DNA of 62,224 nt from Bacteroidales bacterium (GTDB lineage: Bacteria > Bacteroidota > Bacteroidia > Bacteroidales > UBA932). Under the pieces are notes generated by a model that was given only the letters and a program-made list of their open reading frames with translations, ran no database searches and had not been told where the DNA came from. Position numbers and translations under genes: made by a program. The stretch lies in assembly GCA_017961175.1 (NCBI GenBank), contig JAGCXV010000029.1:1-62224 (forward strand), written 5' to 3'. How positions within the stretch are numbered: the first letter of the stretch is position 1; each line of letters opens with the position of its first letter. Below are positions 6,919 through 28,600 of this stretch, in pieces.

Positions 6919-6940
6919 GTAATAAATATGGATTAAGAGA

Positions 6941-7441
6941 ATGATAGACATCCTGATCATAACCATAGCGATCTTCCTCGGAGTTGTGGGCATCATCGGT
7001 TGCGTGCTGCCTGTCATTCCCGGCCCTCCGATCAGTTGGGCGGGCATGCTGATCCTCTACTTCTTCGGACACGGCACAGACTCCACCGGAGAACCTATGT
7101 CCAGCCGTCTTCTGATCATCTGGTGCATCATAACCGCTGTGGTAACCGTTCTGGACTACATTGTCCCTTCCTACCTCACCAAAAAATCCGGAGGCAGCAC
7201 CTACGCCTCCAGAGGCGCCCTTGCCGGCCTTCTGATAGGTCTTATTTTCTTCGGCCCGCTTGGCATCATCCTCGGCCCGATGCTCGGCGCCTTCATCTGC
7301 GAGATACTCTTCGGCCAGAAGACCGCCGGCCAGTCCATCGTCCCTGCCCTCGGAGCCTTCGCAGGCTTCCTCTGCGGTACCGGCCTCAAGCTCATCGCCT
7401 CCGGAATGATGATGTACTACATTTTTGTCTACATCCGCTAG
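6941..7441 (+). CDS. DUF456 family membrane protein
   Basis: A 166-residue integral membrane protein. It has the DUF456 arrangement: an N-terminal hydrophobic helix followed by GCVLPVIPGPPISWAG, a second membrane block with YIVPSYLTKKSGGS, and then Gly-rich helices (GALAGLLIGLIFFGPLGII, GPMLGAFICEI). The Gly-rich repeats resemble the Gly-zipper segments typical of this family, whose molecular role is not established. It closes the envelope operon that starts at the SurA-like gene. The 68 bases after its stop are T-rich and lead into a new promoter. Confidence 0.85.
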   Translation: MIDILIITIAIFLGVVGIIGCVLPVIPGPPISWAGMLILYFFGHGTDSTGEPMSSRLLIIWCIITAVVTVLDYIVPSYLTKKSGGSTYASRGALAGLLIGLIFFGPLGIILGPMLGAFICEILFGQKTAGQSIVPALGAFAGFLCGTGLKLIASGMMMYYIFVYIR

Positions 7442-7509
7442 GCAACCCCCTCAGACCAAGGTTTCCCACTTTTTTTCTTTTTTTGTTCGCTTTTGTCGAT
7501 AAAAGTTCG

Positions 7510-7517
7510 TACATTTG
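7510..7517 (+). promoter_or_regulatory. Bacteroidota -7 box TACATTTG
   Basis: TACATTTG matches the TAnnTTTG consensus and lies 77 bases before the small peptide ORF. A T-rich stretch with several TTTTG sequences lies upstream, but none is at the ideal 19-base spacing. It is the likely promoter of the peptide plus lipoprotein pair. Confidence 0.5.
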
Positions 7518-7593
7518 GACGAATTATGGGCTATTGTCCTCTTTGAGGACAGCCTTCAAACAGAACGAGTAATAACTATTAATATTGAAGTCC

Positions 7594-7743
7594 ATGAAGA
7601 TCTTAAGAAAAAAAGAGGAATACCTCGCTCCTTATTGTGAGTTTGAGCTCCTCGAAACTGAAGATTGTATTGCGGCCGGTTCTCCATTCTCATCAGACGA
7701 TGATGTTCCACCAGTGGAAGATGATGATTGGGGATCATTCTAA
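7594..7743 (+). CDS. Small acidic peptide (49 aa) ahead of a lipoprotein, copy 1
   Basis: A short ORF, MKILRKKEEYLAPYCEFELL..., ending in a run of Asp and Trp-Gly (DDDWGSF). It has no signal peptide and no transmembrane segment: a basic start, an EYLAP core with a Cys two residues later, and a very acidic tail. The same plan (Lys-rich start, Y-x-[AS]-P, acidic Gly/Asp tail) recurs before most of the other lipoproteins of this island, which argues that it is really translated. Its stop is 19 bases before the lipoprotein start, and AGGGAGGA lies in the gap. Function unknown; a secreted or modified peptide, or a leader peptide, are both possible. Confidence 0.7.
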   Translation: MKILRKKEEYLAPYCEFELLETEDCIAAGSPFSSDDDVPPVEDDDWGSF

Positions 7744-7762
7744 ACATTAGGGAGGAAAGAAT

Positions 7763-10414
7763 ATGAAAAAGTATTTAAGCCTTTTATGTTCAGCTGCAAT
7801 AATTGCGCTTTCACTGTCAGGATGTGCCAAGAATGATGCTCCTGATGAGGATGTACAGGGAGTAGGTGTAGAGAAGACTGTAAGCTTCAACGCCCAAAGC
7901 CCTTCTACCAAGTCTTATTTTGGAGAAAAGACCGATAGTGGCTATCCAACCGTATGGACCAGCAACACCAAGGTTTCCATCTCTGTCAACTATGCAACCG
8001 GAAAGGCAGCAACCGTTAATCCTAAGGGAAGCGGCAACACAGCTACTTTCGACGTTGAACTCACTCAGCCTACAGCAGATGAATTTGTCTTCTATGCATT
8101 GAGCCCTTCATCTGCAGCTGTGTCTTATTCTTCCACAAACAAAAGCATCCAGGTGGATATCCCTGCATCCCAGAGTCCTACCAAGGGTTCTGTTGATGAG
8201 GCTTCCCACATTATGTTTGCCAAGTCTGAGACCTTTACCGAGTGGCCTACAGAAACAGTTGACCTGAAATTCGCCCACCTTGCTGCATACGGCAAGTTCA
8301 CCCTGAACAACTTCCGCGAGGACGGAACAGCAGGTAAGGTAAAGATCAACAGCGTAGACATTGAGTCAGACTCTCTGATTGCCGGCCGTTTCTATTTCTA
8401 TCCGGAAACAAAGCATTTCAAAGCAAATCCAGGAACCAATATTATTACTGTTAAGTCAGATAATATTGAGTACGAGCACAATAACAGAGACATTACATTC
8501 TGGTTCGCTGTACGTCCTGTAGACCTGAGCGGTTCTAACATGAAGATAACCCTCAACACCACAGACGGAGTGTTTGTCAAGACCTTCACTTTCCCTAAGA
8601 GTGCTGGAAACTTCCAGTCCGGCAAAGTTGGAACATTCGAAATCAACATGGATGGCATCAACCCTCAGGAGGAAGAGGTTTACACTCTGGTTACAGACTA
8701 TAGTGTACTTAAGGAAGACGCCAAGGTTATCATAGCAGCTGCTGAGGCTGACTATGCAATCAGCACTACCCAGAACGGCAATAACAGAGCTGGCGCTGCA
8801 GTTAACAAGTCTATCGAAAACGATGTTTCTGTCATCAAGAACCCTTCAAGCGCTGTCCAGATCTTTGTTCTTGAGCAGGGTACATTAGAGAATACTCTTG
8901 CTTTCAACTGCGAAAACGGAGATCAGGCTGGACTGTATATTGGCTCTCCTGGACTTTCCAGCAATTATATGAGAAGCTTTACCGGTGACAGTCAGGAATT
9001 CACAAAGGGCAACTGCTCATTCACTGTTATTCTGAAGAAGGACACAGAGTCAGAGACTCCTGTTGATTACGCTATTCTGAAATCAAACGCTGATGTGGCC
9101 AACACTTTCATGCGTTTCAACGCTGGTAGCAGTAATATTTTCAGCCTGTATACAGAAACAAGTAGCGTAACCGGCAAGGTAGCTCTCTATGTTCTCAACG
9201 GTTCCGGAGAAGGAGATCCTCTTGTTGATGCAATGACTGATGAACCTGTTATCGAGTTCGACGAGGATACCAAGACTGTAACCATCACTTGCCCTGATGA
9301 AACCGCAAGAATCGGCTATTCTATCGATGGTTCTGAACCTGGTATCGATGATACCGGAGCACCTCTTCCTGGAACATTAGAGTACACAGCTCCGTTCACA
9401 ATCAGTAAGACTACTACCGTTAAGGCATTTGCCGGTGCAGAGCACAAGCGCATCAGTCCTGTAGTAACCAAGGTATGTACTGTAACAGCTGGTGAGCCTA
9501 CAGTTGAGACTATAAAGATTACTGAAACCTGGGAAGCAGACCTTACTACCACTGACGGTAATAATGGCAAGTTCCTGGATGACGGAGCAGAGGTTTGGAT
9601 TGCAAATACCTATGGAAGAGTAGCAGCAAACAACGCTTCTATGTCTTCATTCTACTCTCCTAAGTTTGATATGAGCGACATTACCGGTGGAACTATTACA
9701 TTCATGCACACTGGAAATGTTACCGGATCTAACTATCAGAATCTTGGTAAGGCATATTATAGGATTAACGATGGTGAGTGGACCCAGATTACCCTCTCTA
9801 ACCCATCAAATAACTGGGCTTGGCAAACAGCTACTGTTGAAGCTTCTGAGTATGCAGGCAAGACTATCCAGTTCAAGTGGGAGTTCCAGGGCAATGCTTC
9901 CAAGACCTGGGAGGTTAAGCAGTTCAAGATTACTGTTCCAACCACATCTTCATACATCTTGGATGGTACCATTACAGGCGGTTCAAGTGGATATGCTTTA
10001 GAGTCAGATATAACTCAGGGTGAGATTTCCTGGAAGGTAATGGGTAATACCACCATGAGCCCTTGGAGAATAGGAGGTAAGAGCCTAACAGGAGAGGATA
10101 GAACACTTTACAGTACAACAGCTATTGCTAATAATGTCAACAAGATCGTTATTACTCACGGCACAGCTAACGATATTACAGTTAACTCAATGAAAGTTAC
10201 TGTTCACAGTTCTGCTGCTGGTGCAGCATCTGGAACTTCTGATGTTATTGCAACCTTTACTCCAACCTTCCAGGCCAACGGTACTGTTACCATTACCAAG
10301 TCTGGCACAACAAGCTGGGCTAATTGCTACTACAGAATAGTTTACAACGTTACTGTTACAGCAGACGCCAACAAATTTGTCCAGTTCTCAAAGGCTGAAT
10401 TCTTCTTTGAATAA
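7763..10414 (+). CDS. Fimbrillin-like surface lipoprotein with chitobiase-type domain
   Basis: An 883-residue lipoprotein: signal peptide with lipobox LSGC (Cys near residue 21), followed by acidic residues as in surface-exported lipoproteins. Residues about 30-300 resemble the fimbrillin-like N-terminal fold shared by its neighbours (TKSYFGEKTDSGYPTVW, the PASQSPTKGSVDEASHIMFA region). Near 505-575 is a chitobiase/hexosaminidase C-terminal-like module (RIGYSIDGSEPG... TTTVKAFA). Residues about 585-730 look like a choice-of-anchor jelly-roll (SSFYSPKFDMSDITGG), with a further beta-rich tail. It is probably an outer-membrane surface adhesin or binding protein. It is preceded by a small acidic peptide and followed by a strong terminator. 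Confidence 0.78.
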   Translation: MKKYLSLLCSAAIIALSLSGCAKNDAPDEDVQGVGVEKTVSFNAQSPSTKSYFGEKTDSGYPTVWTSNTKVSISVNYATGKAATVNPKGSGNTATFDVELTQPTADEFVFYALSPSSAAVSYSSTNKSIQVDIPASQSPTKGSVDEASHIMFAKSETFTEWPTETVDLKFAHLAAYGKFTLNNFREDGTAGKVKINSVDIESDSLIAGRFYFYPETKHFKANPGTNIITVKSDNIEYEHNNRDITFWFAVRPVDLSGSNMKITLNTTDGVFVKTFTFPKSAGNFQSGKVGTFEINMDGINPQEEEVYTLVTDYSVLKEDAKVIIAAAEADYAISTTQNGNNRAGAAVNKSIENDVSVIKNPSSAVQIFVLEQGTLENTLAFNCENGDQAGLYIGSPGLSSNYMRSFTGDSQEFTKGNCSFTVILKKDTESETPVDYAILKSNADVANTFMRFNAGSSNIFSLYTETSSVTGKVALYVLNGSGEGDPLVDAMTDEPVIEFDEDTKTVTITCPDETARIGYSIDGSEPGIDDTGAPLPGTLEYTAPFTISKTTTVKAFAGAEHKRISPVVTKVCTVTAGEPTVETIKITETWEADLTTTDGNNGKFLDDGAEVWIANTYGRVAANNASMSSFYSPKFDMSDITGGTITFMHTGNVTGSNYQNLGKAYYRINDGEWTQITLSNPSNNWAWQTATVEASEYAGKTIQFKWEFQGNASKTWEVKQFKITVPTTSSYILDGTITGGSSGYALESDITQGEISWKVMGNTTMSPWRIGGKSLTGEDRTLYSTTAIANNVNKIVITHGTANDITVNSMKVTVHSSAAGAASGTSDVIATFTPTFQANGTVTITKSGTTSWANCYYRIVYNVTVTADANKFVQFSKAEFFFE

Positions 10415-13539: not shown

Positions 13540-13692
13540 TTAAAAATCACCACCATCTACAATTTCATCATCGCCACCAGCTCCGCCAGGGCTACCAGGA
13601 TTCATTACAGACTCGACATGTATCGAGTAGAGTTTACACGCAGGAGCAGAATAGGCGCTCCTGGAAACAATTGTTTTTGTCGTAGAAACCAT
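13540..13692 (-). CDS. Small acidic peptide (50 aa) ahead of a lipoprotein, copy 2
   Basis: A 50-codon ORF reading MVSTTKTIVSRSAYSAP at the N-terminus, then ACKLYSIHVESVM, ending in a Gly/Asp-rich acidic tail. It is clearly homologous to copy 3 at 15852 (shared TIV-x-RS-x-Y-x-AP-x-CK-x-YSI-x-VESVM). No signal peptide is seen. Only 13 bases separate its stop from the ATG of the 842-residue lipoprotein, so the two are surely on one transcript and possibly translationally coupled. Function unknown. Confidence 0.75.
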   Translation of the reverse strand: MVSTTKTIVSRSAYSAPACKLYSIHVESVMNPGSPGGAGGDDEIVDGGDF

Positions 13693-13745
13693 TGCTTTGT
13701 TTAATTTTCGTTATTATTAATATTAGTTTATTCTGTTTTAGGACC

Positions 13746-13775
13746 TATGCGTGCCCCAGAGGGCTATTACGCATA
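13746..13775 (-). promoter_or_regulatory. Hairpin in the 5' leader of the lipoprotein 2 operon
   Basis: TATGCGT and ACGCATA form the outer stem and GCCC/GGGC an inner stem. It lies between the -7 box at 13783-13790 and the peptide start at 13692, so it would be at the 5' end of the mRNA. It could stabilise the transcript or regulate it. Confidence 0.4.
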
Positions 13776-13782
13776 TTCGGGC

Positions 13783-13790
13783 CAAATATA
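13783..13790 (-). promoter_or_regulatory. Bacteroidota -7 box TATATTTG (minus strand)
   Basis: Reads CAAATATA on the plus strand, an exact TAnnTTTG match, about 90 bases before the peptide ORF. The -33 position is only weakly matched. From here to 14042 (about 250 bases) I see no gene or element. Confidence 0.5.
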
Positions 13791-14042
13791 GGAAAAAAAA
13801 CAATATAGGCCGAAGAATAGATGAGAATTATTTTTAAGGGTTGGCCTGTAGATGAATTCCGTAGAGCGATATTAACAAAAATGAAATATCGGTGTAAAAT
13901 GAGGATGGGGCCCTCTCAAATAGCCAAAAACATGTTTAGAGTTGCCTATAACTGGGTTTTGGGGTGAAAAAGGGCAGGGCGGGAAGGGGATAATATGGTT
14001 TAACATCAACCTAATGGATACCATCAGCGATTGAAATGAAAA

Positions 14043-14073
14043 AAGAAGGCTAACCGTTCTGGTTAGCCTTCTT
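14043..14073 (-). terminator. Terminator hairpin after lipoprotein 3
   Basis: AAGAAGGCTAACC pairs perfectly with GGTTAGCCTTCTT around GTTCT. It is 22 bases beyond the stop of the minus-strand lipoprotein gene, with a T run following on that strand. Confidence 0.88.
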
Positions 14074-14095
14074 AAAATAGGACTCTATTAGTCAA

Positions 14096-15682
14096 TTAGT
14101 CTTCATCGTAGATAACGGTTACTTTATGGAAGCGCATAAAGCCTTTTTCATTGCCTCCTCGACCTATCTCAAGAACAATATCGCCGTTTTCACCATGAAC
14201 ATTAGTGGCAACGTACTCTGTAGAGTTTGCCACGAGGTTATTGAAAGTACTAGTCTTTAGATTCTTCGCTATTGTTAAAGAAGCCCTAGGATTAAGCACC
14301 TCTCCTGAAGCCCAAACATGTATTTCCCAAACTTTATCATTCTGACTGAAAGCAGTAGAGGCTAGTCTTAAGAAGGTCGCTTTAGTGTTAGTAGCACCAA
14401 TGCTTATATACTCTGATGTTTTTTCATAACCCTTTCCGCTATGTTCAATTTCCCAATCGTTTCCTTTGTCATCTTTACCAGAATCACTAGATGAGAAGGT
14501 GCTCATAGAAAGAATAGCCTCAATACGACCTTTCTTCTGGTTAACAGTAACAACTACAGGAGTTGCATCTTTGTAGGTCAATGTAATATGTCCCTCTCTA
14601 GCAGGAGTATTGTATGCCTGCGCAGCAACATCGAATTTTACCTTACCAGATGTTGTATAATCAAAACTGCTAATCCAAGTTACATCTGATTCAGCTGAAA
14701 TAAATTCACCGTCAATAGGATCATCTATATCATAATTAATAGTATAGGTGCCAGCCACATTGTCAGCTGCCATAGGGTTGGCAGAGGTAACATTGATTAC
14801 AGGATGATGGATAACGGTTCCTGAAGGCAGAGAGATGTTGAGAGTTGTAATCTTTCCTTCAGTAATTTCTATACCACTTGCAGGAATGGTGATGGTTTTC
14901 TCAATGTAGTAGTTTTCTGTATTGGCTTTAACAATCAGGGTTGAACCACCAGCCAAAGTCTGTGGTAGAACTACCAGATAAGCACCGTTTGTTCCATCAA
15001 TTTCAAACTGAGTAGCTGCTGTATAATTAGCAGTTACTTTCTTTGAAGGATTACTCTGAAGAGATAATGACTGACCAGCAAAATCAACCAACACGTTGCC
15101 AATAAGGTTATTATCAGCTTCAACTGAAACGAAAGTAGGATGCTCTCCGTTCAGCTGGTTTTCAGTATCCTTAAGTACAACCTTAATAACAGAAGTGAGC
15201 CTCTTGAAAACAAGACCACTAACTGTGGTGTTCTCTGGGGTAACGGTAAACATCTTGGAAACAAGAACGTCTGCGCTTCCGTCAAAAGAAGTGGCAGAAG
15301 GATTCTGTTCAGCTGACAAAGCAATGCTTGCTCCTGATGTGCTAACGCCTCCTGTGGAATAAGGATAATATGCATACAGGTCACCAGAAACAGTCTCACC
15401 AGAGAAAGTAGCTGTAGTTGAAGCACTGGTAATTGAAGAGTTAAACTTCTCGTTGGAATTAGTTCCATTGGTTACGCCAATAGCGTCGCCTACGGACCAG
15501 TAAGGAGTAGTACCATGAACCTCTGTCTTAGTTCCTGGGTCAACTACTGGGTTACCGGCTATAAGAGTAGCCTTTACAATAACGTCTTCATCATTTACAA
15601 CTACGTCATCAGACTTGCTGCAAGAGAAGAAAAGCATTGAAGACAATGCTAGTACAAGTGTTGAGTAAAAAAACTTTTTCAT
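14096..15682 (-). CDS. Fimbrillin-like lipoprotein with BACON domain (left arm of the switch)
   Basis: A 528-residue lipoprotein (start at MKKFFYS, two codons inside the longest frame). The signal peptide ends in a lipobox-like FFSC followed by SKSDD. Residues about 30-290 have the fimbrillin-like fold (VHGTTPYWSVGDAIGV, TVSGDLYAYYPYS). A BACON domain follows near 295-388 (INVTSANPMAADNVAGTY... VTWISSFDY... VVVTVNQKKG). The last 135 residues form a beta-rich domain of unknown type (WEIHVWASGEV, MRFHKVTVIYDED). It is the distal gene of the cassette that starts at the left repeat of the invertible segment and faces the outward promoter there, so in this orientation it should be expressed. Probably surface exposed. 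Confidence 0.78.
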   Translation of the reverse strand: MKKFFYSTLVLALSSMLFFSCSKSDDVVVNDEDVIVKATLIAGNPVVDPGTKTEVHGTTPYWSVGDAIGVTNGTNSNEKFNSSITSASTTATFSGETVSGDLYAYYPYSTGGVSTSGASIALSAEQNPSATSFDGSADVLVSKMFTVTPENTTVSGLVFKRLTSVIKVVLKDTENQLNGEHPTFVSVEADNNLIGNVLVDFAGQSLSLQSNPSKKVTANYTAATQFEIDGTNGAYLVVLPQTLAGGSTLIVKANTENYYIEKTITIPASGIEITEGKITTLNISLPSGTVIHHPVINVTSANPMAADNVAGTYTINYDIDDPIDGEFISAESDVTWISSFDYTTSGKVKFDVAAQAYNTPAREGHITLTYKDATPVVVTVNQKKGRIEAILSMSTFSSSDSGKDDKGNDWEIEHSGKGYEKTSEYISIGATNTKATFLRLASTAFSQNDKVWEIHVWASGEVLNPRASLTIAKNLKTSTFNNLVANSTEYVATNVHGENGDIVLEIGRGGNEKGFMRFHKVTVIYDED

Positions 15683-15693
15683 AGTCATAAATA

Positions 15694-15852
15694 TTAAAGA
15701 TCATGTCCATCACCACCCATATCATCACCAGGGTTTCCTTCATTGCCATAGCCGCTGGCCGTCATTACAGACTCTACAGCTATCGAGTAGATCTTACACT
15801 TAGGAGCTTCATATGAGCTCCTACAAACGATTGTTTTTGAAGTGGAAATCAT
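15694..15852 (-). CDS. Small acidic peptide (52 aa) at the left edge of the switch, copy 3
   Basis: A 52-codon ORF starting MISTSKTIVCRSSYEAP, then KCKIYSIAVESVM, with a Gly/Asp/Asn tail. It is the closest relative of copy 2. Its ATG lies only 13 bases outside the left inverted repeat, so it is the first gene reached by the outward promoter. The lipoprotein starts 11 bases after its stop. No signal peptide is seen; function unknown. Confidence 0.75.
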   Translation of the reverse strand: MISTSKTIVCRSSYEAPKCKIYSIAVESVMTASGYGNEGNPGDDMGGDGHDL

Positions 15853-15865
15853 AACAATTTATTAT

Positions 15866-15884
15866 ATTTACATTATAAATATTA
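15866..15884 (+). repeat. Left inverted repeat of the switch (19 bp)
   Basis: ATTTACATTATAAATATTA, exactly the reverse complement of 17064-17082. The core ATTTA-cATTA-TAAAT is itself a dyad with a 5-base spacer, as expected of a recombinase binding and crossover site. The match does not extend beyond 19 bases on either side. Confidence 0.88.
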
Positions 15885-15916
15885 CAAAATCTAAATAGTA
15901 AGGATATGGGCACCAA
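15885..15916 (-). promoter_or_regulatory. Outward promoter inside the invertible segment
   Basis: On the minus strand it reads TTGG, 19 bases, TAGATTTTG. The start-to-start distance of 23 bases is identical to the tRNA-Ile and rRNA-type promoters in this window. The -7 box (15885-15893) directly abuts the left inverted repeat, so transcription would start inside the repeat and run into the left cassette. The -7 box has one extra T compared with TAnnTTTG. Confidence 0.68.
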
Positions 15917-15930
15917 TTACGCATTGGCGC
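15910..15930. promoter_or_regulatory. Dyad overlapping the -33 box of the outward promoter
   Basis: GCACCAAT and ATTGGCGC form 8-base arms with one mismatch around TACGC. The left arm contains the -33 TTGG (minus strand). The position is right for a repressor or activator site; no regulator is identified. Confidence 0.4.
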
Positions 15931-15978
15931 ATAATCGCTGCAAAATTAATCAAAAAATCGTTTTCTCCAAGAAAAACG

Positions 15979-15993
15979 CTGTAATTGTTACAG
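15979..15993. promoter_or_regulatory. CTGTAA-TTG-TTACAG dyad upstream of the recombinase
   Basis: A perfect 6-base dyad directly before a TTTG (15994-15997) and 28 bases before a TAGGTTTTG (16021-16029), which is a candidate -7 box for the recombinase gene although the spacing is long. It may be an operator of the recombinase. Confidence 0.35.
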
Positions 15994-16050
15994 TTTGGTG
16001 TATTTCACAGAACCGCTGTTTAGGTTTTGGCAGAGGAAAAACACGAATCT

Positions 16051-17034
16051 ATGAAACACACTACTCACCACAACAAGGAAAACCGGGCGGACAAGGGGGC
16101 GGACAAAGGCCGAATACCCCTGTTGGACTGGATGCGCATCCAATCTGAAAATGCCGAGCAAATAGCCCTGGAGGCCGGTCGGAGCCGGGCTGTCAATGCA
16201 AAAAGCTTCTTGTCCGCCTCCAAACATCTGGCTATATATATAAGTAGTATAGGACAGAAACGGTCTTTTCCGCTTCAGGAGGTGGACAAAACCTTCTGCA
16301 GGGGCTTTGCACAGTACCTGGGACAGGCCCAAAACCGTCGCGGAGGAAAATTGAGCTCAAATTCCCGGTTTCTGTACTTCTCCAAGTTTGTGGCAGCCTT
16401 GAATGCGGCGGTCCGGGCAGGATATATCCCCTCCAACCCCGCCACCTTGCTGGACAAGGGGGAGAGGCCTCGATTCCGGCAAACCGAAAGGAGCTACCTC
16501 ACGGAAGAGGAGCTTCAAACGCTGATCGATACTCCAAACACCCATTCCGGGGGTGATGTGGCCAGGGCTTTTCTGTTTTCCTGCTTCTGCGGCCTGCGCT
16601 GGAGCGATATCTCAACCCTGGTCTGGGGAGACATCCGATCCCAGGGAGACTGTCTCCAGATAGAAAAGCGTATGGTCAAGACCCGGGAACTGCTCTACCT
16701 GCCTCTGAGCCGGGAAGCGGTGTTTTTACTCCCGGAAAAAGGAGGAAAGGGTCCATTGGACCTTGTTTTTAACCTACAGAGTTATGCCAGTGCCAGCATT
16801 GCCCTGAAAAAGTGGCTCCGCGATGCAGGTATCTCCAAACCCGTAACATTCCATTCCGCCCGCCATACCTTTGCCACCTTGCTTCTAAGCCAGCAGCAGG
16901 ATCTTTACACCGTGAGCAAACTTCTCGGCCATAAAAGCATCAAGGTAACCCAGATTTACGCCGAGGTTGTAGACCGCAAAAAGCGTGACGCTGTAAACTC
17001 CCTTTCCGGGATTTTCTCTTTCCCTTCTCGTTAG
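16051..17034 (+). CDS. Tyrosine site-specific recombinase (putative invertase)
   Basis: A 327-residue recombinase; the first ATG in frame (16051) is chosen over a TTG at 16027 that overlaps the candidate -7 box. An N-terminal SAM-like core-binding domain (about residues 20-125) is followed by the catalytic domain with the full set of conserved residues: Arg183 in CGLRWSD, His268 and Arg271 in HSARHT, His294 in LGHKS and the nucleophile Tyr303 in IYAEV. It should cut and rejoin DNA at short inverted sites. It is the sole gene between the 19-bp inverted repeats, which are its likely substrates. It resembles the Bacteroidota recombinases that invert surface-protein promoters rather than conjugative-element integrases, since no mobilisation genes accompany it. 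Confidence 0.9.
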   Translation: MKHTTHHNKENRADKGADKGRIPLLDWMRIQSENAEQIALEAGRSRAVNAKSFLSASKHLAIYISSIGQKRSFPLQEVDKTFCRGFAQYLGQAQNRRGGKLSSNSRFLYFSKFVAALNAAVRAGYIPSNPATLLDKGERPRFRQTERSYLTEEELQTLIDTPNTHSGGDVARAFLFSCFCGLRWSDISTLVWGDIRSQGDCLQIEKRMVKTRELLYLPLSREAVFLLPEKGGKGPLDLVFNLQSYASASIALKKWLRDAGISKPVTFHSARHTFATLLLSQQQDLYTVSKLLGHKSIKVTQIYAEVVDRKKRDAVNSLSGIFSFPSR

Positions 17035-17063
17035 CCGCTCTATCCCAAAGCATTACAGCGAGT

Positions 17064-17082
17064 TAATATTTATAATGTAAAT
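17064..17082 (-). repeat. Right inverted repeat of the switch (19 bp)
   Basis: TAATATTTATAATGTAAAT, the exact reverse complement of the left copy at 15866-15884. It lies 29 bases after the recombinase stop and 52 bases before the right-hand peptide ORF. No TAnnTTTG promoter is seen inside the segment next to this copy, nor between it and the peptide. Confidence 0.88.
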
Positions 17083-17134
17083 TGTAAGGGAGAGAAAAAT
17101 ATTGCGGTTTAAGCATATTTAAACATCCAAGATT

Positions 17135-17266
17135 ATGACAGATAAAATAAAGTACGACAAGCCTTTGATGAAGGTCGTCGAGTTGCAACACAAGACTATG
17201 CTGCTGGCCGGCAGTAATGATGGAGGGGGAGACCTCCCACCTATGGGTGACCCCGAGGATCTTTAG
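17135..17266 (+). CDS. Small peptide (43 aa) at the right edge of the switch, copy 4
   Basis: A 43-codon ORF beginning MTDKIKYDKPLMKVVELQHK, then TMLLAGSNDGGGD and a short acidic end (GDPEDL). It is the most divergent of the seven peptides: it has YDKP where the others have Y-x-[AS]-P, and no Cys, but keeps the Lys-rich start, the Val/Glu core, a small-residue stretch and the Gly/Asp tail. It ends 28 bases before the lipoprotein ATG. It has no visible promoter in the present orientation and would be switched on if the segment inverts. Function unknown. Confidence 0.68.
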   Translation: MTDKIKYDKPLMKVVELQHKTMLLAGSNDGGGDLPPMGDPEDL

Positions 17267-17294
17267 TAATTAACCCCTAAAAACGAAGACGACA

Positions 17295-18608
17295 ATGAAG
17301 AAGTATATTATTCTTTGGGCTGCGCTGTCGATGACGGCTGCCCTCGTAATGACATCATGCAGCAAGGATGACAATATAACGGTGACGCCACAGGATTCCT
17401 CGACATCGATAATCATTCCCTACACAGTAAACGTCAACGGCGGCGCAACAACCCTCGCCACAGTTGACAGTGACAACAAGACACTTAAGTTCGCAGCAGG
17501 CGACAAGTTGTACGTTACTGGTACGAACATTAAGGGCGTGCTCGAAATTCAGTCTGGCACAGGAACGGCAAGTGCCACATTCTCGGGCGACTTGACCTAT
17601 TCAGGAGAAGGAACCCCTGCTGCAGACTTGGCGCTTACCGCCACACTTGTGAGCGCACAGCAGACAGATGGAACTGAGGTAACCATCAACCCAACAACAG
17701 GGGCCGTGACTGTAAACTATCCCACGACGGCCTACTGCACCGACGTGGCCACAGCCGTGCAGAAGTACAGCAACCTGACGGGCACATCGACCTACTCTGC
17801 GAAGAAATTCACTCTCACCCAGCAGACCGCTTTCCTTAATTTCGAGATTACCTTCGAGGGTGGCGCCAAAACAGCCACTACACTCTCCGCGGTGGTCAAC
17901 AACAATGGTTCAGACATCTGCACCGCCAACGTCACCACAACGACCGAGAGCGAGATGGTAGTCGCCAAGTTTGTTCTGCCCGTAGCCAAAGGCACAACTC
18001 TGAGCAGCGCCAAGGTGACGATGGGCAGCGTAACTGCCACCAGCTTCGGTGCCAGCCAGACGCTTGAGGGCAAGGTGTATAATGTGAAGAGAGCACCGTA
18101 CATTATGGCCGCTAAAGCCATCTCTGAGGATGAGGGCAAGCTGATTTGTACCGCCGGACATATCCATATGTATAACTATAATGCCAATCCTGCCTGCACG
18201 GCGACCCGCGTGGCCAAGATTATCTATGTAGGTAGCGAGACCGACAATACCACCTACACCCACGGTCTTGCATTGGCGCTGACCGACGAGGGCGAGATGG
18301 ACTGGGAATCCGCAAAGACGGCTTGCTCCAACAAGAACACATCTGCAGCCAAAGTTACCAACGCATCATGGATGCTGCCTAGCGAAGATCAGTGGACTCG
18401 GATGATTGAGGTAGCTGGCTACACCGCTCTGCGCGATGGCTTCAGCATTGTCGGCGGCACAAATATACCGTCGGATGAATATGCATATTACTTGTCGTCT
18501 ACGGAGGTAGATTCCGAGGAAGCGAATGCCTTCTTCTTCAGAGATGGGCATTGGCAAGGAGTCGAAAAGGTCGACGATTACCCTTTCCGTGCGTGCCTCG
18601 TTTTTTAA
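17295..18608 (+). CDS. Fimbrillin-like lipoprotein with DUF1566-like C-terminus (right arm of the switch)
   Basis: A 437-residue lipoprotein with lipobox MTSC followed by SKDD. Residues about 30-270 form a fimbrillin-like beta domain rich in Thr (AAGDKLYVTGTNIKGVLEI). Residues about 290-437 look like the DUF1566/major-paralogous C-type-lectin-like fold: DWESAKTAC, WMLPSEDQWTRM, YYLSSTEVDSEEANAFFF and a final FRACLVF. This domain is often a ligand-binding tip. Base composition is more GC-rich than the lipoproteins on either side, which hints at a separate origin. It is the right-hand partner of the invertible segment. It ends with a clear terminator. Confidence 0.78.
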   Translation: MKKYIILWAALSMTAALVMTSCSKDDNITVTPQDSSTSIIIPYTVNVNGGATTLATVDSDNKTLKFAAGDKLYVTGTNIKGVLEIQSGTGTASATFSGDLTYSGEGTPAADLALTATLVSAQQTDGTEVTINPTTGAVTVNYPTTAYCTDVATAVQKYSNLTGTSTYSAKKFTLTQQTAFLNFEITFEGGAKTATTLSAVVNNNGSDICTANVTTTTESEMVVAKFVLPVAKGTTLSSAKVTMGSVTATSFGASQTLEGKVYNVKRAPYIMAAKAISEDEGKLICTAGHIHMYNYNANPACTATRVAKIIYVGSETDNTTYTHGLALALTDEGEMDWESAKTACSNKNTSAAKVTNASWMLPSEDQWTRMIEVAGYTALRDGFSIVGGTNIPSDEYAYYLSSTEVDSEEANAFFFRDGHWQGVEKVDDYPFRACLVF

Positions 18609-18658
18609 CCTATTTAACTATTTACCCAGGAATAGGCGATTCTGAGGGAAAAGTTTTT

Positions 18659-18690
18659 AACCGGGCGGGAGCAATCCCACCCGGTTTTGT
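18659..18690 (+). terminator. Terminator after the right-arm lipoprotein
   Basis: AACCGGGCGGGA pairs with TCCCACCCGGTT around GCAA (one mismatched position), followed by a T-rich tract; 50 bases after the stop. From 18691 to 18834 no gene or element is seen. Confidence 0.85.
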
Positions 18691-18834
18691 TTTGCATCGC
18701 GGAGGAAAATTCCAGGATTCGCCAAAGAAAATCTTGGATTAACAATTTCTTTAGGGGTAGGGCAACGAATTTACCTTTTGGCATTCGCTGAGAGAAGTAT
18801 CAATATATATTGCGCCGTTAATAAACGGAATGCA

Positions 18835-18866
18835 TTTGCGGGGATGGAAATAATTTAATATTTTTG
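18835..18866 (+). promoter_or_regulatory. Promoter of the toxin-antitoxin-like pair
   Basis: TTTG (18835-18838), 20 bases, TATTTTTG (18859-18866): close to the Bacteroidota consensus and spacing, 48 bases before the first gene of the pair. Confidence 0.6.
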
Positions 18867-18914
18867 CATCGTTTTAATTAATAATAAATCGAAGCAATAA
18901 TATAATATTATTCC

Positions 18915-19877
18915 ATGAAGACTATTTTTATTTCCGGAAAAGGTGCAGAGCTTAAAGAACGGAGCAAAAAACAGATGAAAGGCATAAGCATAGGAGATGC
19001 GCTTTCTTATAATTTCTATGATGGCAAGTTATATAATGTGCTGTTTCTTTTTGCTGAACCCAAGGGGAACATCCCTACGCCGCGTTCTTTAGCCATTACC
19101 GCAGGCGAGTTGAGTGGAAAGACTGGTTTGCCGGTTGTCTTCCTGCTCGATAAGTGTCCGGCCTACGAAAGACAGAGGCTTATAGACAAGGACGTGTATT
19201 TTATTGTTTCAGAAAAGTATGCATACTTGCCAATGCTTGTGGCAAATGAGCGTTTGAGAAAGAGAAAACCGGCGAAGATGCTTAGCCCTGTAGCCCAATT
19301 CCTTCTTCTATTCCATTTGCAAGTTGAGAATCTGGACGGAAAGGCCGCTCGAGACATTGAGGATATGATACCATATTCTTATCCGAGCATTACACTTGGC
19401 TTTACCTGTCTTTCTGATTTGGGGCTATGCCAAAAAGTCTCAAATGGCTCTAAACGTAAAGTGCTCAAGTTCAACGAATGTGGCAGGGTACTTTGGGATA
19501 AGGCTCAGTCTTTTCTTATAAATCCGGTAGCAGATAGAATATTCTGCGATGATTTCCTGTCAGAAGAAAGTTTCCCTGTTTGCGGTATTAATGCGCTTGC
19601 ACATTACACTATGCTCAATCCAGACCCGGAAAGAATCATTATGATGAGTGTTGACCGGCTGCGGTCATTTAAAGATTCCGGAGCGCTGGTTCACCCTAAT
19701 GAGTTTGACGGCAACATCAAAATTGAGACATGGAAATATCCAGTTATAGCTAAAATAGGGGAAAAAGCGGAGTGGGTAGATCCTCTATCTTTAGCGATTA
19801 CTCTCCGCGATGATTCCGACCCTCGTGTAGAAGGCGAAATAGAACGTTTAATAAATACTATAAAATGGAAGGGTTAG
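18915..19877 (+). CDS. Putative antitoxin/regulator with winged-helix segment
   Basis: A 320-residue protein without signal peptide. Residues about 120-185 have a winged-helix pattern (SPVAQFLLLFHLQ... PSITLGFTCLSDLGLCQKVS). The N-terminal 110 residues show alternating hydrophobic strands and helices (VLFLFAEP, GLPVVFLLDKCP) of unknown type. The gene overlaps the next by 13 bases, and the downstream protein is an AbiEii-like nucleotidyltransferase. In AbiE type IV systems the upstream gene is a DNA-binding antitoxin, so this is the natural reading here. Family membership is inferred from context more than from sequence. AT-rich composition suggests horizontal transfer. Confidence 0.5.
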   Translation: MKTIFISGKGAELKERSKKQMKGISIGDALSYNFYDGKLYNVLFLFAEPKGNIPTPRSLAITAGELSGKTGLPVVFLLDKCPAYERQRLIDKDVYFIVSEKYAYLPMLVANERLRKRKPAKMLSPVAQFLLLFHLQVENLDGKAARDIEDMIPYSYPSITLGFTCLSDLGLCQKVSNGSKRKVLKFNECGRVLWDKAQSFLINPVADRIFCDDFLSEESFPVCGINALAHYTMLNPDPERIIMMSVDRLRSFKDSGALVHPNEFDGNIKIETWKYPVIAKIGEKAEWVDPLSLAITLRDDSDPRVEGEIERLINTIKWKG

Positions 19878-20656
19878 ATAAATATAAAGAGGCTTTTGAA
19901 GCTTTTTCAGAGAACTACGTTATTATTGGAGGTACTGCTTGCGACCTAGTTATGAAGGGTACTCCGGTGCGTCCCCGTGCTACTCACGACATTGATATGA
20001 TAGTTATCGTTGAGAAAATGACATCAGATTTTGCAAGGCATTTTTGGCAATTCGTGCGGGAAGGAGGATATCGCCCTGAAAAACGTAAACAGGCGGAAGG
20101 TGAGGCTACAAAGTACGAATTGTACAGATTTGTTAACGGACGGCCCAACTATCCGGAAATGATAGAACTTTTGTCTCGCCAACCAGATATTCTTGGTTTG
20201 CCACAAGGATTGACAATCGAACCGTTATCTATTGATGAAGGGTCAAGTTTAAGTGCAATTATAATGGATGATGATTACTACGATTTTGCCATCTCCCACA
20301 GTAAATTAACTAATGGAATTCGTCATGCTGATTCTGCGGCACTTATAGCTTTGAAAGCACGTGCATACCTTAACCTTTTAAATGACAGGGAGAAGGGTAA
20401 ACATGTGAACAGCAGGGACATAAAGAAGCATCGTACAGATGTGTTGAAGAATGTGGTCATTATGGAGGATAGCGAGATTATAGCTCCTGAGACAATAGTT
20501 GCTTGTATAAGAGATTTTGTGGCTTCAATAAGAAATGATTGGAACATTCTCGAGAAACCTCTTGCCAGCGCTCTCGGGCTGCAACCATCGTTTATTGAAT
20601 CTTTGCTGGAAGAATTAGAGCGGTTGTTTGTTATAAGGATCGGTCGGATAGATTAG
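19865..20656 (+). CDS. AbiEii-like nucleotidyltransferase (putative toxin)
   Basis: A 263-residue protein with the minimal nucleotidyltransferase signature: Gly-Gly in VIIGGTACDLVM (residues 22-23) followed by the metal-binding pair in RATHDIDMIV (Asp42 and Asp44). Later features include a HADSAALIALKARAYLNL helix typical of AbiEii/DUF6036-type proteins, with KHVNSRDIKKHRTDV after it. Such proteins transfer nucleotides to tRNA or other targets and act as toxins or abortive-infection effectors. The 13-base overlap with the upstream gene supports a two-gene module. Alternatively it is a solitary housekeeping nucleotidyltransferase, which is less likely in this accessory setting. Confidence 0.65.
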   Translation: MEGLDKYKEAFEAFSENYVIIGGTACDLVMKGTPVRPRATHDIDMIVIVEKMTSDFARHFWQFVREGGYRPEKRKQAEGEATKYELYRFVNGRPNYPEMIELLSRQPDILGLPQGLTIEPLSIDEGSSLSAIIMDDDYYDFAISHSKLTNGIRHADSAALIALKARAYLNLLNDREKGKHVNSRDIKKHRTDVLKNVVIMEDSEIIAPETIVACIRDFVASIRNDWNILEKPLASALGLQPSFIESLLEELERLFVIRIGRID

Positions 20657-22990: not shown

Positions 22991-25462
22991 ATGAAGAAGA
23001 TGAACAGATATTTAGGCAGTAGCCTTCTGGGACTGGCCGTGGTATTTGCATGCTTTGGATGTGCAAAGGACAAGGGAGAGAAAGAGCCGGAAGTATTTAC
23101 CAGGACTGTAAAGGTCACGATGACAAAAGGCGAGACTGGGGATGTTGGAGAATCCGGAACGAAGACAACCGTGGTGGAAGGAGCTGATAAGGCCACTTTC
23201 TACTGGACAGACGGAGACCAGGACAACTTCACTATATATGAGAACGGAGTAAAGGGAAATGTTAAGGGAGTGGAGTTCAGCTCCGATATGAAGAAGATAA
23301 CTCTGGAGGTGCAGTTCAACACTGCTGATGCGGATGAATATGTTTATACGGCAAAATATGCGGCAGAGCTCAGCAACAGCGGAAATCCTAAGCTGAGCGC
23401 AAGCCAGAGCCCGCTGGAAAACTCCTATGATCCGGACATGGATATCATGATCGCGGAGGAAAAGACTTCAGCTACGGCACTTACTTCCCTGAAGTTTGTG
23501 ATGAACAGGGTGGTTTCCGTAAACAAGATGACCCTGACCGGCCTGGAGGCTGGAGAGAAGATCAATACCGTGGAGTTCGAGCTGGACAAGGTGGTGGCTG
23601 GAGCATATCAGGGGAACAGCGGTTTTACCGGATCTGACAAGAAACTGACCTTCAGTTACGACGGAGCTAAGGTGGGAGATGACGGAACGTTCCCGGTATA
23701 CTTTGTGTGCGCTCCGGTTGAGGAGGCTGCCATTCAGGGAGTTACGGTTAAGACGGACAAGAACTCATACTTTAAGTCGGCAAGTGCATTTGAGGGGAAG
23801 AGCATCTCCTTTACGCTGGACAAGATGATGAGGTTCACGATGGATATGAGCGGATACGGTTCATCTGCAGGAGATGGCAATGTCTTTACCCTGGTGGAGA
23901 AGACCTCAGACCTGGCCGAGGGACTTTACCTGATTGCTGCGGCAGATTATGACGTTGCAGCTGGAACCCTCAGCAGCAACAGCAAGTATCTGTTGGAAGC
24001 TAGCATAACCAAGAGTGCAGACAAGAAGACTATAACCTTGGAGGAAACCAGCGCAGCCGTGCCGGTAACACTCGTGCGCAGCGGCAACAACTGGCAGATC
24101 AAGATAACCAAGACCGTGGATCCTAACGACGGCAGGTACCTGAGCTGGAGTTCAGGAAATTCTATCAGCATTCAGGACGATGCCTATAACTGGGCAATTA
24201 CCGTCAGCGATGGAGAAGCTGTAATCAAGGCTAGTTCAGACCTTAACAGGATGCTGCAGTATAACCACGGTTCTCCGCGATTTGCCTGCTATCTTGCTTC
24301 TTCCAACCAGAACCCTGTGGCTCTGTACTACAACGCTAACGGCGGAACTCCGGTTGAGCCGGGTGATCCTGCAATTAATGTTGTGTCTGCAAATCCGATG
24401 AGCGTTTCCAGCCAGGGAGGCGTGCAATCCATTTCCTACAGCGTTTCCAATCCGGTTGCCGGAGTAAATGCTACTGCAACCGCCAACGTCAGCTGGATCA
24501 ACGATATAACGGTAGATCTGTATACCATTTCCTTTAACGTGGATGGCCAGGAAGAGGAGGCTCCTGAGAGAACAGGAGTCATCACCATCAAGTACGAGGG
24601 TGCTGCAGACGTGGCCGTTACCGTTAATCAGGAGAGCGGAACTACCAGCGGAATGCCTGCCAACGGATGGCTTGAGCTTCCTGCCACCACTTCCGGCAGC
24701 GATTATTTCAGCGGTACTTTCTATGACGACAGCGACCGCAACTACACATACCTGTACCAGTACAGCTCATACACCGCTCTTTGGACTGCATATCCGCTTT
24801 ACCGGGAAACCATCAGCAGCGGCGCTCCTCTGGGACCTGTTATGTACTCCGGAGAGGAGACCCGTGCAAGCTGGACCTACAACCCTCAGATAGAAAAGAC
24901 CAAGCAGGTTAACCTCAGTTCCAGCTACGGTGTGGATTACGGCAATACCATCTATTCCCGCGGACACCAGATTCCTAACGGAGACCGTAAGGGCAACAGC
25001 ACGATGCAGAGCCAGACCTATTACTTCACCAACAGTACTCCTCAGATCCAGAACGGCTTCAACGGCAGCATCTGGAACAGTCTGGAGAACGGTATCAGGG
25101 ATGTTATCGGTTCTGATACAATGTACGTGGTTACCGGTGCTTCCTTCCTGAAGGGTGGTAAGGCCGAGAATATTACCTATATCAACCCTGCCGGCGATCC
25201 TAACAAGGATGTTCCTGTTCCTAACTACTACTGGAAGGTTCTGCTGAAGGTTAAGCGTAATGGCAGCAACATTACCTCCGCCAAGGCTATCGGCTTCTGG
25301 CTCAAACACCAGCAGTACAGCAACAACAACTACGAGTCTCATGCCTTCTGCGTTGATTCCATCGAGGCATGGACTGGCTTCAACTTCTTTGTGAACGTTC
25401 CGGAAAGCATCCAGAACAGCGCCGAGAAGAACACTAGTTGGGATACCTTCAAGAGTTTCTAA
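22991..25462 (+). CDS. Fimbrillin-BACON-endonuclease fusion lipoprotein 1
   Basis: An 823-residue lipoprotein with lipobox CFGC. Residues about 35-300 carry the same fimbrillin-like domain as the proteins at 10998 and 25661. A BACON domain follows at about 460-546 (INVVSANPMSV... VSWINDITV... VAVTVNQESG). Residues about 555-823 form a DNA/RNA non-specific endonuclease of the beta-beta-alpha-metal (NUC1) type: YSRGHQIPNGDR with general-base His659, then TNSTPQIQNGFN...WNSLE supplying the metal-binding Asn. It should be a cell-surface nuclease, possibly for nutrient DNA/RNA or defence. The usual Asp before RGH is Ser here. It is paired with a small peptide gene and followed by a close paralogue. 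Confidence 0.85.
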   Translation: MKKMNRYLGSSLLGLAVVFACFGCAKDKGEKEPEVFTRTVKVTMTKGETGDVGESGTKTTVVEGADKATFYWTDGDQDNFTIYENGVKGNVKGVEFSSDMKKITLEVQFNTADADEYVYTAKYAAELSNSGNPKLSASQSPLENSYDPDMDIMIAEEKTSATALTSLKFVMNRVVSVNKMTLTGLEAGEKINTVEFELDKVVAGAYQGNSGFTGSDKKLTFSYDGAKVGDDGTFPVYFVCAPVEEAAIQGVTVKTDKNSYFKSASAFEGKSISFTLDKMMRFTMDMSGYGSSAGDGNVFTLVEKTSDLAEGLYLIAAADYDVAAGTLSSNSKYLLEASITKSADKKTITLEETSAAVPVTLVRSGNNWQIKITKTVDPNDGRYLSWSSGNSISIQDDAYNWAITVSDGEAVIKASSDLNRMLQYNHGSPRFACYLASSNQNPVALYYNANGGTPVEPGDPAINVVSANPMSVSSQGGVQSISYSVSNPVAGVNATATANVSWINDITVDLYTISFNVDGQEEEAPERTGVITIKYEGAADVAVTVNQESGTTSGMPANGWLELPATTSGSDYFSGTFYDDSDRNYTYLYQYSSYTALWTAYPLYRETISSGAPLGPVMYSGEETRASWTYNPQIEKTKQVNLSSSYGVDYGNTIYSRGHQIPNGDRKGNSTMQSQTYYFTNSTPQIQNGFNGSIWNSLENGIRDVIGSDTMYVVTGASFLKGGKAENITYINPAGDPNKDVPVPNYYWKVLLKVKRNGSNITSAKAIGFWLKHQQYSNNNYESHAFCVDSIEAWTGFNFFVNVPESIQNSAEKNTSWDTFKSF

Positions 25463-25660: not shown

Positions 25661-28600
25661 ATGAAAAAGGTATTTTTTAGACTAGGTTTGTTTGCGGCAG
25701 TGTCCGCGATGCTGCTGGGATGCGCCCAGAAAGAAAACTCAGAACCTGAGCCAGAGGGCTTCAAGAGGACGGTGCAGGTAACGTTTACCAAGGGTACGGA
25801 TACCAAGACTGCCATTGTGGAAGGTGATAACAAGGCTTCCTACGTGTGGACTGAGGGCGATGAGCAGTATTTCAAGGTTTGGGAGAATACAACAGTTGGA
25901 TCAAGCATCAGTGCTTCCTACAGTTCCGACATGAAGAAGGCTACTCTCACGGTTTCATTCAATACGGTGAATGCTTCTGAGTATGTCTATAAGGCATTAT
26001 TTGCCAAGGGAATCAGTGGAAGTGATAATCTTGAGATCCAAGCTAATCAGAATCCTACGGCTACGTCATACGATCCAAGTGCAGATGCTATGTATGCAGA
26101 GGATATAACTTCTTCTTCAGCAAAGACTTCTCTGGATTTTATTCTGCATAGAGCAATAACGGTTAACAAGATGACTTTGAAGGGAATGACTGCGGGAGAG
26201 AAGGTTGGCAAAGTGGAGTTGACTTTCAACAAGAACGTTACCGGTTATTTTAATCCATCTAACGGAGAATATTCATTGAATGGGAAGAAAATATCGTTGT
26301 CTTATCCTAGTCTGGAAGTTGGAGATAATGGAGAGTTCCCGGTTTATTTCACATCTGCTCCTGGTGATGGGCTTGCTCTGACGAGTGTTGTTGTCTATAC
26401 AGATCAAAACTCTTACAACAGAACCGATTTCTCCAAGACGTATAACTTCTCCATCGGGAAGATGGTAAGGTTTGGAATAAACATGGCAGGAACTGCTACT
26501 CCTGTTACTTCTTCAGATGTTTATACGCTTGTAAGCAGTAGTTCAGATCTTACACCTGGAACATATATCATTGCTGCATCTGCATTGGATTTTGCTATGG
26601 GTCCTATTGCGGGCACTTCAACAAAGTATCATTCTTCAGAAAGTATAACAAAAGTAGGGAATACCATATCGTTGGATAATACAAGTCCGGTTCTTATTCT
26701 GGAACTTGCGAAGAACGGTAACTATTGGACAATTAAGAATATTAAGGAGGGGGACTCTAATTATGGCAAGTATTTATATTGGTATTCAGGAAATAGCTGC
26801 AATGAGCGGTCAGATCCATACAACTGGACGATTGATATAAGCAACGGCGTAGCAACGATTACTTGTTCTGATGATTCCAATAGGCATCTTCTGTATAATT
26901 CGCAAGATACAAGATTTGCGTGCTATACATCTTCACAGAAACCGATAGCTTTATACAAGAAGACCGGTGGGGCTAAACCTCTAGGAATATACTTTGAAAA
27001 CGAGTCTTACAGCTTTGCTAAAAATTCTGATGAATACAATTCGTTTACTGGTCAGACAGTAACCAAGGAAGATTCAGATACGAGAGCTGTTTGTTATGAG
27101 ATGTCAGGCAACATAGGAATCATTAATTCTTCTTCTGGAGAAGTAACACTCAATGGAACAACAGGTACGGCAACTGTAATAGCTACCGTTGGGGCAGATG
27201 ACACACATTCCTCTGGATCTGTTTCATATACTATTACCGTAACTTCTGAATTTGGCGATTATGATTTGTTAGATTATGAATTTATTGGCGTGACAACCGA
27301 ATACTATCTTCCTAAGAGTAATTTGGATGGTTCAAGCCAAAGGGGCTCCAAGTATTCTACATATTCTGCGGGAGGAACTTCTACAACTGGGGCAACAATT
27401 CAGCTTAGAACAAGTGACAGCAAATCAGGTATTGTCTCTACAGCTTCAGGAGGAAAGATTTTGAAGGTTGAATTTGTTTGGAATTCCCATACCGTTTCTG
27501 GACGAAAAGTCCAAGTTTATGGAAAGAATACTCCATATTCTTCCACTTCTGATTTATATGATTCAAACGACCAAGGAACTCTTATAGGAACGGTTAATAA
27601 AGGTGTAACAACTTTGACCGTTACAGGTAGTTTTAAGTATATTGGTATAAAGAGTGCGGATGGTGCCTTGTATTTGGATGAGATACGAATTTACTGGACA
27701 GAAGCTCCAGCTACAGATCCTGTCATAAATGTTACATCAAATAACCCGATTTATGTTGCCAAGGAAGGTGGAGCGCAATCTATAAGTTATAATATTACTA
27801 ATCCAGTGTCAGGGGAATCTCTAAGTGCTTCTGCGAATGTTTCGTGGATTAGCAACATCAGTGTTGGTGCTTCTACTGTCACATTTAGTGTTGCAGCCCA
27901 GTCTGCCAGTTCTGCTGCCAGGGCTGGTAGCATTACATTGATTTATAACGGTGCTGTTCCTGTTCAGGTTGCTGTTAGTCAGGAAGCCGGAGAAGGCGGA
28001 AGCCAGGCGGCAAATGGTTGGCTTGAGCTTCCTGCTATGCAGACCGGAAACGATTTCTTCAACGATTTCTTCAAGGTTGGCAGTGTCCGTAATTATTCAT
28101 ACATGTACCAGTATAGCACTTATACCAGCCTTTGGGTGGCATATCCACTATACAAATCTGTGATGAGCACAAATACTGTTATACCAGGGCCTTATTCTCC
28201 AGATATAGCTTACAGCGAAGAAACCCGCGGGACTGATTGGGATCCAAATCCGCACCTTGCAGAAGGGAAACAGGTTAATGTTTGGTCTTACAGTTACAAT
28301 GTAAACTACGGCGATACTTACTGGTCTTCTACTCAGGGATCTGAATATTATGCAAGGGGCCATCAGATTCCAAATGCAGATAGAAATCTGGTAGAGGGAG
28401 AATTACAGACTCAAACTTTCTATGCAACAAACAGTACTCCTCAGCTTCAGAACAAATTTAACTCGTCAATCTGGGCGGCTCTGGAAAAGGCTGGAAGAGA
28501 TTGTGCTAGAGGAGGTGGAGTAAATGATACCGTTTATGTTGTGACAGGAGCAGCCTTTAACAAGGTTGGAGAGAATAGGACAATTACCTACATTCATCCA

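Follow-up and report, generated by a model that had tools for sequence, protein, structure and literature searches.

A tyrosine recombinase gene inside a perfect 19-bp inverted repeat between two lipoprotein cassettes of a Bacteroidales bacterium: a candidate promoter switch carrying its own enzyme

A recombinase gene between two divergent cassettes

The DNA analysed here (the window, 62,224 nt of a Bacteroidales contig) contains at positions 15866-17082 a segment of 1217 bp bounded by two 19-bp arms in inverted orientation, which are separated by 1179 nt. The arms, the gene between them and the cassettes on either side are the following.

14043-14073, minus strand: terminator-like hairpin past the left cassette (terminator scan)
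14096-15688, minus strand: lipoprotein of the left cassette, 530 aa, fimbrillin-like (Mfa_like_1, 6e-16)
15694-15852, minus strand: small peptide of the left cassette, 52 aa (ORF list)
15866-15884, plus strand: left repeat arm, ATTTACATTATAAATATTA, 13 nt before the ATG of the left peptide gene and within its 5' leader
15941-15971, minus strand: outward promoter-like site, -33 CTTG (15971-15968), 19 nt, -7 TAATTTTG (15948-15941)
15995-16028, plus strand: weak promoter-like site for the recombinase, TTGG, 22 nt, TAGGTTTT
16051-17034, plus strand: tyrosine recombinase, 327 aa, PF00589 (7e-25) and PF13102 (1e-13), catalytic residues intact
17064-17082, minus strand: right repeat arm, exact reverse complement of ATTTACATTATAAATATTA, 52 nt before the ATG of the right peptide gene
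17135-17266, plus strand: small peptide of the right cassette, 43 aa (ORF)
17295-18608, plus strand: lipoprotein of the right cassette, 437 aa, lipobox seen by eye

The perfect repeat claimed by the sequence-only reading was recovered with exact arms at 15866-15884 and 17064-17082, which agree at 19 of 19 positions. Perfect inverted repeats of at least 14 bp with arms at most 3 kb apart number three in the window (19, 17 and 15 bp), and the longest repeat in 60 shuffles (500-base blocks) was 16, against 19 in the real sequence. As in a promoter inverton, the segment is thus flanked by inverted repeats longer than any in the shuffled sequences, with the target ATGs directly past the arms (13 nt on the left and 52 nt on the right). 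The sequences adjoining the two arms are dissimilar to each other. An internal dyad of the arm, considered as the mark of a recombinase core site, was rejected on finding such a dyad in 39% of shuffled 19-mers. No match to the left outer junction was found among viral contigs, and the opposite orientation was not seen in the one assembly, the draft genome, in which the repeat was found twice only.

Neither in the window nor in the draft genome of which it is contig C67 (82 contigs with 1,919,521 bases in total, completeness 80.6%) was a third repeat site with up to three mismatches found. This bears on the idea that the recombinase is a master invertase which also inverts distant sites, a role that would be compatible with a promoter inverton. 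Master tyrosine invertases do exist in B. fragilis, where Tsr0667 and Tsr19 are so described (PMC4747536), but with no other site within three mismatches in a draft genome of which about a fifth may be missing, such a wider role is very unlikely.

The start chosen for the recombinase is the ATG at 16051, with an in-frame TTG at 16027. The enzyme was said to have intact catalytic residues, and all of the R-K-H-R-H set and the tyrosine were found (R182, K209, H267, R270, H293 and Y302, numbered as in P0001, from which the start Met is absent). The further ORFs inside the segment, of 52-114 aa, overlap the recombinase gene or its leader along all or most of their length and are judged to be shadows, which leaves the recombinase, as had been proposed, the sole gene between the arms. 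Pfam gave PF00589 and PF13102 only, which excludes membership of the Hin-type serine invertases. Of the NCBIfam models of tyrosine-type DNA invertases, NF007370 scored 22 bits against a curated cut-off of 221, and NF007371 gave no match at E <= 0.01.

The sequence-only reading had also described paired cassettes of a small peptide followed by a fimbrillin-like lipoprotein. This description holds for the left cassette through its Mfa_like_1 match; on the right the pairing is present, but the fimbrillin-like label found no support, since searches of Pfam (E <= 0.1) and NCBIfam (E <= 0.01) gave no family match for the lipoprotein. The contig as a whole is rich in cassettes in which a peptide of about 50 aa is followed by a long lipoprotein.

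A probable promoter and a shared leader element

Promoters of Bacteroidota follow the pattern TTTG / TAnnTTTG, and the outward promoter-like site lies 96 nt upstream of the ATG of the left peptide. The TAnnTTTG form of the -7 box is also given in PMC4747536. By itself the motif is weak, since 42 sites in the window score equal or better (both strands, 15971-15941 included); a second site of equal score and the same direction lies within the recombinase gene (16958, minus strand). The leader of the left cassette, here B, also aligns with the leaders of four related cassettes, one in the window (A, at 13692) and one each in the relatives G009, G027 and G030 (MAFFT and by eye, unscored). An exact -7 box stands at -98 in A, -96 in B and -89 in G030, and a box of 5/6 at -103 in G027; G009 has none at the aligned position. 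No recombinase was found beside the cassettes of A, G027 and G030, and G009 has a remnant of one. Because most of the aligned leaders of related cassettes have a -7 box at a similar position, the native promoter of the left cassette probably sits inside the segment, and the 13 nt between the left arm and the left ATG leave no room for another. Motif and alignment together therefore point to an internal promoter directed outward past one repeat, as in a promoter inverton.

Upstream of the right cassette (C) in the present orientation, no -7-like box (at least 5/6) was found from 1 to 268 nt; an exact box, preceded by a poor -33, lies 269 nt upstream within the recombinase gene. Virtual inversion of the segment places a perfect -7 box 135 nt before the right ATG. 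The gap before the right cassette is not significant, as about one 5/6 box is expected by chance over such a length (by hand). Nor is the absence of a box there informative, given that three of ten other cassette leaders (G009, window 25498 and L189 11640) also have no -7-like box at -60 to -110, where the other seven carry one of at least 5/6.

The left arm overlaps a 5'-leader element of related cassettes that have no recombinase. The match of the arm to this element is 17/19 in G009, 14/19 at best in A and G030, and a less clear 12/19 in G027, with 11/19 at window 7593 and 10/19 at window 25498. Such an overlap with an ordinary leader element raises the alternative that the divergent cassettes merely share leaders, the common AT-rich element near their ATGs mimicking an inverted repeat and the recombinase being left behind by a mobile element and having no connection with them. 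It would agree with the kinship of the enzyme, whose closest relatives are integrases of mobile elements (below). Against this, the 19/19 arms occur in the least related cassette pair compared with B, and the bases adjoining them are unlike: the peptides of B and C share 12 of 52 aligned positions, whereas those of A and B share 30 of 52 with an arm element of only 14/19 at best. Identical arms despite unlike peptides would be expected of arms that are kept alike by recombination. In addition, cassettes neighbour the recombinase on both sides and its catalytic residues are intact, and shared leaders alone are considered an unlikely explanation.

A related locus with a recombinase remnant

DNA matches to 13540-19400 were found in 10 of 39 genomes of the genus (own included), and G009 is the only other genome whose match extends to the arm. 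Identity in its left cassette is 68%, and the BLAST alignment extends as far as the inner end of the left arm, although a weaker similarity of the leader seems to run on inward of it. Further on lies a remnant whose 26 encoded residues resemble the recombinase at its positions 9-34 (identity 50%, E 5e-4); the short DNA match in G009:C17 is in frame with LLEWMRLQ. The left arm is kept there at 17/19, and a doubtful candidate for the right arm matches at 15/19 (hand count). These traces suggest, from sequence comparison, that the enzyme has occupied this locus for some time; they give no sign that the switch works, and the left arm of G009 could have been kept as a leader element alone.

At the place of the recombinase, the G009 locus (L189) has a 443-aa ORF at 6744-8075, ATPase-like by eye, which lies inside a 15-bp inverted repeat (6671-6685 / 8115-8129, 93% complementary). 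Cassette and remnant at L189 are reversed relative to the flanking matches when compared with window 6148-30644.

A remnant between a 17/19 left and a doubtful 15/19 right arm, with another gene in that place, is what might be left of a locked or decaying switch, and the segment in the window could likewise have inverted once and now be held in one orientation. The arms in the window are perfect and the recombinase gene is intact, however, and a locked switch is judged decidedly unlikely.

Kinship of the enzyme with integrases

The closest kin found for the recombinase are, by sequence, integrases of mobile elements rather than known invertases. With itself excluded, the best identity was 45% in the 39 genus genomes (own included, E <= 1e-20), 49% across 398 family genomes (E <= 1e-45) and 46% across 393 order genomes (E <= 1e-60), the family and order sets being drawn from larger groups, with at most five candidates scored per genome; no relative above 49% was found in these sets, so that repeat and enzyme cannot be traced together. 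In named genome contigs the widest match had 41% identity and a match of 50 residues 46%; most of these named relatives, like the gene content of the window, point to the Bacteroidota. The best identities among the matches listed were 44% on plasmids (up to 5000 records) and 45% in phages, and viral contigs gave two distant matches. Several of the relatives among the matches listed adjoin genes that resemble, by eye, those of integrated elements. In a tree of 94 of 96 sequences (two under 280 aa left out), the enzyme groups with five integrases of 404-477 aa, compared with its own 327 aa, with support of 100/97. The mobile-element integrases at L109-L114 resemble the enzyme in sequence (identity up to 49%), but have 385-477 aa with an N-terminal region and enclosing repeat scores below 14. 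A resemblance of the repeat to sequence in related integrase loci was considered and dropped, the best ungapped matches of 12-13/19 not exceeding those of shuffled repeats.

The N-terminal region of these integrases is missing from the enzyme. When the 125 N-terminal residues of a relative were compared with the locus, residues 96-125 matched (E 0.013), and nothing credible was found for residues 1-95 (a match of E 2.8 fell on the opposite strand). The gap of 166 nt between the arm and the ATG is too short for the missing region, which is presumably an arm-binding domain. Most mobile-element integrases carry such a domain, according to the survey PMC8138268, in which Rci recombinases are described as being without the arm-binding domain that their integrase kin have. 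The enzyme therefore differs from an IntCTnDOT-like integrase in having no N-terminal arm-binding region, and from mobile-element integrases in general in having cassettes on both sides in place of adjoining element genes. Short DNA matches to the N-terminal coding part of the recombinase in G000:C76 and G009:C2 lie inside a long membrane-protein-like ORF and are taken as chance; similar short matches occur in G003:C18 and G015:C15.

The compact layout of a single recombinase gene with terminal inverted repeats, together with the closest relatives being element integrases, could also be that of a small mobile element with 19-bp terminal repeats which was inserted between two cassettes. This is extremely improbable: unlike an insertion sequence, the segment is single-copy in the draft genome and shows by eye no target-site duplication beyond its arms, the probable promoter and leader of the left cassette lie within it, and nothing above 45% identity to the recombinase occurs in the 38 other genus genomes.

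Other recombinases enclosed by inverted repeats

Distinct recombinase ORFs were gathered (n = 96, partly with the repeat-enclosed enzymes of L117 and L116 as queries), of which 87 had enough flank for a search for arms within 700 bases and nine were dropped. An inverted repeat scoring at least 14, a cut-off chosen following a first look at the data, encloses 4 of these 87 recombinases and none of 138 control ORFs of 300-480 aa from the same loci (one-sided p ~0.02 by hand, window included). With the window, which was chosen for this feature, left out, the counts are 3/86 and 0/138 (one-sided p ~0.055, by hand). The scores are 19 for the window, 18 for L116, 15 for L117 and 54 for L011; a score of 13 was reached by the best controls and by four further recombinases.

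All three of the other enclosed recombinases adjoin surface genes, and their loci are in this respect of similar plan. The L117 recombinase, of 334 aa, lies within a 15-bp repeat and has a SusC-type gene on either side, the two being divergent; two TAATTTTG boxes were read by eye, one inside the segment (6405-6398, directed left) and one beyond its right end. L011 likewise lies between divergent SusC-type genes, the 5' ends of which form its long imperfect repeat. L116, from the same genus, has an 18-bp repeat where a DUF3575 / Mfa_like_1 fimbrial operon begins; its surface genes are on one side only, no surface cassette having been found on the opposite side of the recombinase. In the enzymes of L116 and L011, Ser replaces the first catalytic Arg. 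A crude neighbour scan gave an outward surface-type neighbour for 8 of the 87 recombinases, an undercount that missed L116 and L117, which were identified through Pfam.

On the tree, four changes are required for the four enclosed enzymes, and one change sufficed in 0% of 200 bootstrap trees. Shuffled labels also gave 4.0 changes on average, so the tree shows only that the enclosed enzymes form no single group; L117 and L011 sit on long branches. With their recombinase genes in inverted repeats and divergent SusC-type neighbours, L117 6246-7556 and L011 1213-2866 are candidate receptor-switching loci in their own right. Genes near contig ends can mark repeated or invertible DNA, and recombinase genes of the genus lie near contig ends at L173, L174, L176, L178 and L179.

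A possible promoter switch and its relation to known systems

The reading preferred here, with a probability of roughly 0.72, is that the segment is a promoter inverton carrying its own recombinase. The enzyme (16051-17034), descended from a mobile-element integrase through loss of its N-terminal region, would act on both 19-bp repeats and invert the 1217-bp segment 15866-17082. In the present orientation, the outward promoter in the left end would drive the left peptide and lipoprotein cassette; inversion would turn it towards the right cassette, at a distance of 135 nt from the ATG there. Since the two crossovers would lie in 5' leaders, both coding sequences would stay unchanged.

The sequence-only reading had proposed an either/or phase switch with its own recombinase aboard. 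Anatomy, relatives and catalytic residues agree with a switch of this kind, but a strict either/or is uncertain. A simple scan of the stretch from the recombinase stop codon to the right peptide gave no terminator-like site, and for this reason the recombinase transcript may continue into the right cassette; the switch may then be one between strong and weak instead of on and off. The RNA fold across the right junction is unremarkable (z -1.35). A bolder proposal, which is put forward tentatively and seems rather doubtful at present, is that mobile-element integrases of this bacterial group have turned, more than once and independently, into switches carried on the DNA that they invert, beside or between divergent surface genes. 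The recombinase would in this locus read into the cassette behind it, inversion would trade a strong promoter for the weak one of the recombinase, and the recombinase dose would be tied to the cassette that is down.

The H segment of Salmonella has an outward promoter and Hin is a serine recombinase; in SusC/SusD shufflons, exchange takes place within coding sequences. The window has a tyrosine recombinase, in contrast to Hin, with one cassette per side. Recombinase genes within invertible segments are already known: according to PMC5903667, the gene of Hin rides inside its own inverting segment, and Providencia stuartii has a putative 844-bp fimbrial invertible segment in which a recombinase ORF lies within inverted repeats near a fimbrial locus, although these repeats are 14 bp long and imperfect and the account of the segment mentions no second cassette. 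The promoters of the Tsr19/BF2766 system of B. fragilis are alike in having TAnnTTTG between inverted repeats, surface-gene targets and a tyrosine recombinase, but the recombinase gene is described as lying near the local promoter segment and outside it (PMC4747536). The SusC/SusD shufflon of the same species (Tsr0667) also inverts genes of outer-membrane proteins, but through multiple inversions at gene clusters (PMC4747536), whereas both arms in the window lie in non-coding leaders, which sets the segment apart from this class. Rci of plasmid R64 is, as noted above for its group, a DNA-reshuffling recombinase without the arm-binding domain of its integrase kin, but it belongs to the IntP2 subgroup and reshuffles segments of a pilus gene (PMC8138268).

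In an inverton group dominated by Bacteroidota, fimbrillin-family genes are among those possibly driven, and in the same source invertases near invertons are generally not enclosed in the way of the window recombinase (PMC11892184). Large invertible segments are mentioned in a review (PMC12632263). A recombinase-carrying segment between two fimbrillin-like cassettes was not found among the titles and starts of abstracts listed from the open literature, which is a weak negative.

If the preferred reading is true, the locus is a compact surface switch between two lipoproteins, and with site, enzyme and promoter contained in 1.2 kb the whole switch would be testable in a laboratory host. It would also suggest a possible route from integrase to invertase, through loss of the N-terminal region and new sites in a 5' leader, and provide a genome signature with which to find more such loci, namely a recombinase gene in an inverted repeat beside surface genes.

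Further observations in the window

Window 7593-28873 is an array of peptide and lipoprotein cassettes with variable domains (Fn3_assoc, CHB_HEX_C_1, weak BACON and endonuclease), most of the peptides having a Y-x-x-P-x-C pattern and acidic tails. Two long lipoproteins of the same cassette style, 22991-25462 and 25661-28873, end in a DNA/RNA non-specific endonuclease domain (PF01223, 2e-34 and 1e-31), and may be surface nucleases. At 18915-20656 lies a two-gene unit, parts of which match DNA of G014:C61 at 76% identity. Its second gene weakly resembles an AbiEii nucleotidyltransferase, below the Pfam cut-off, and the unit is a possible toxin-antitoxin pair.
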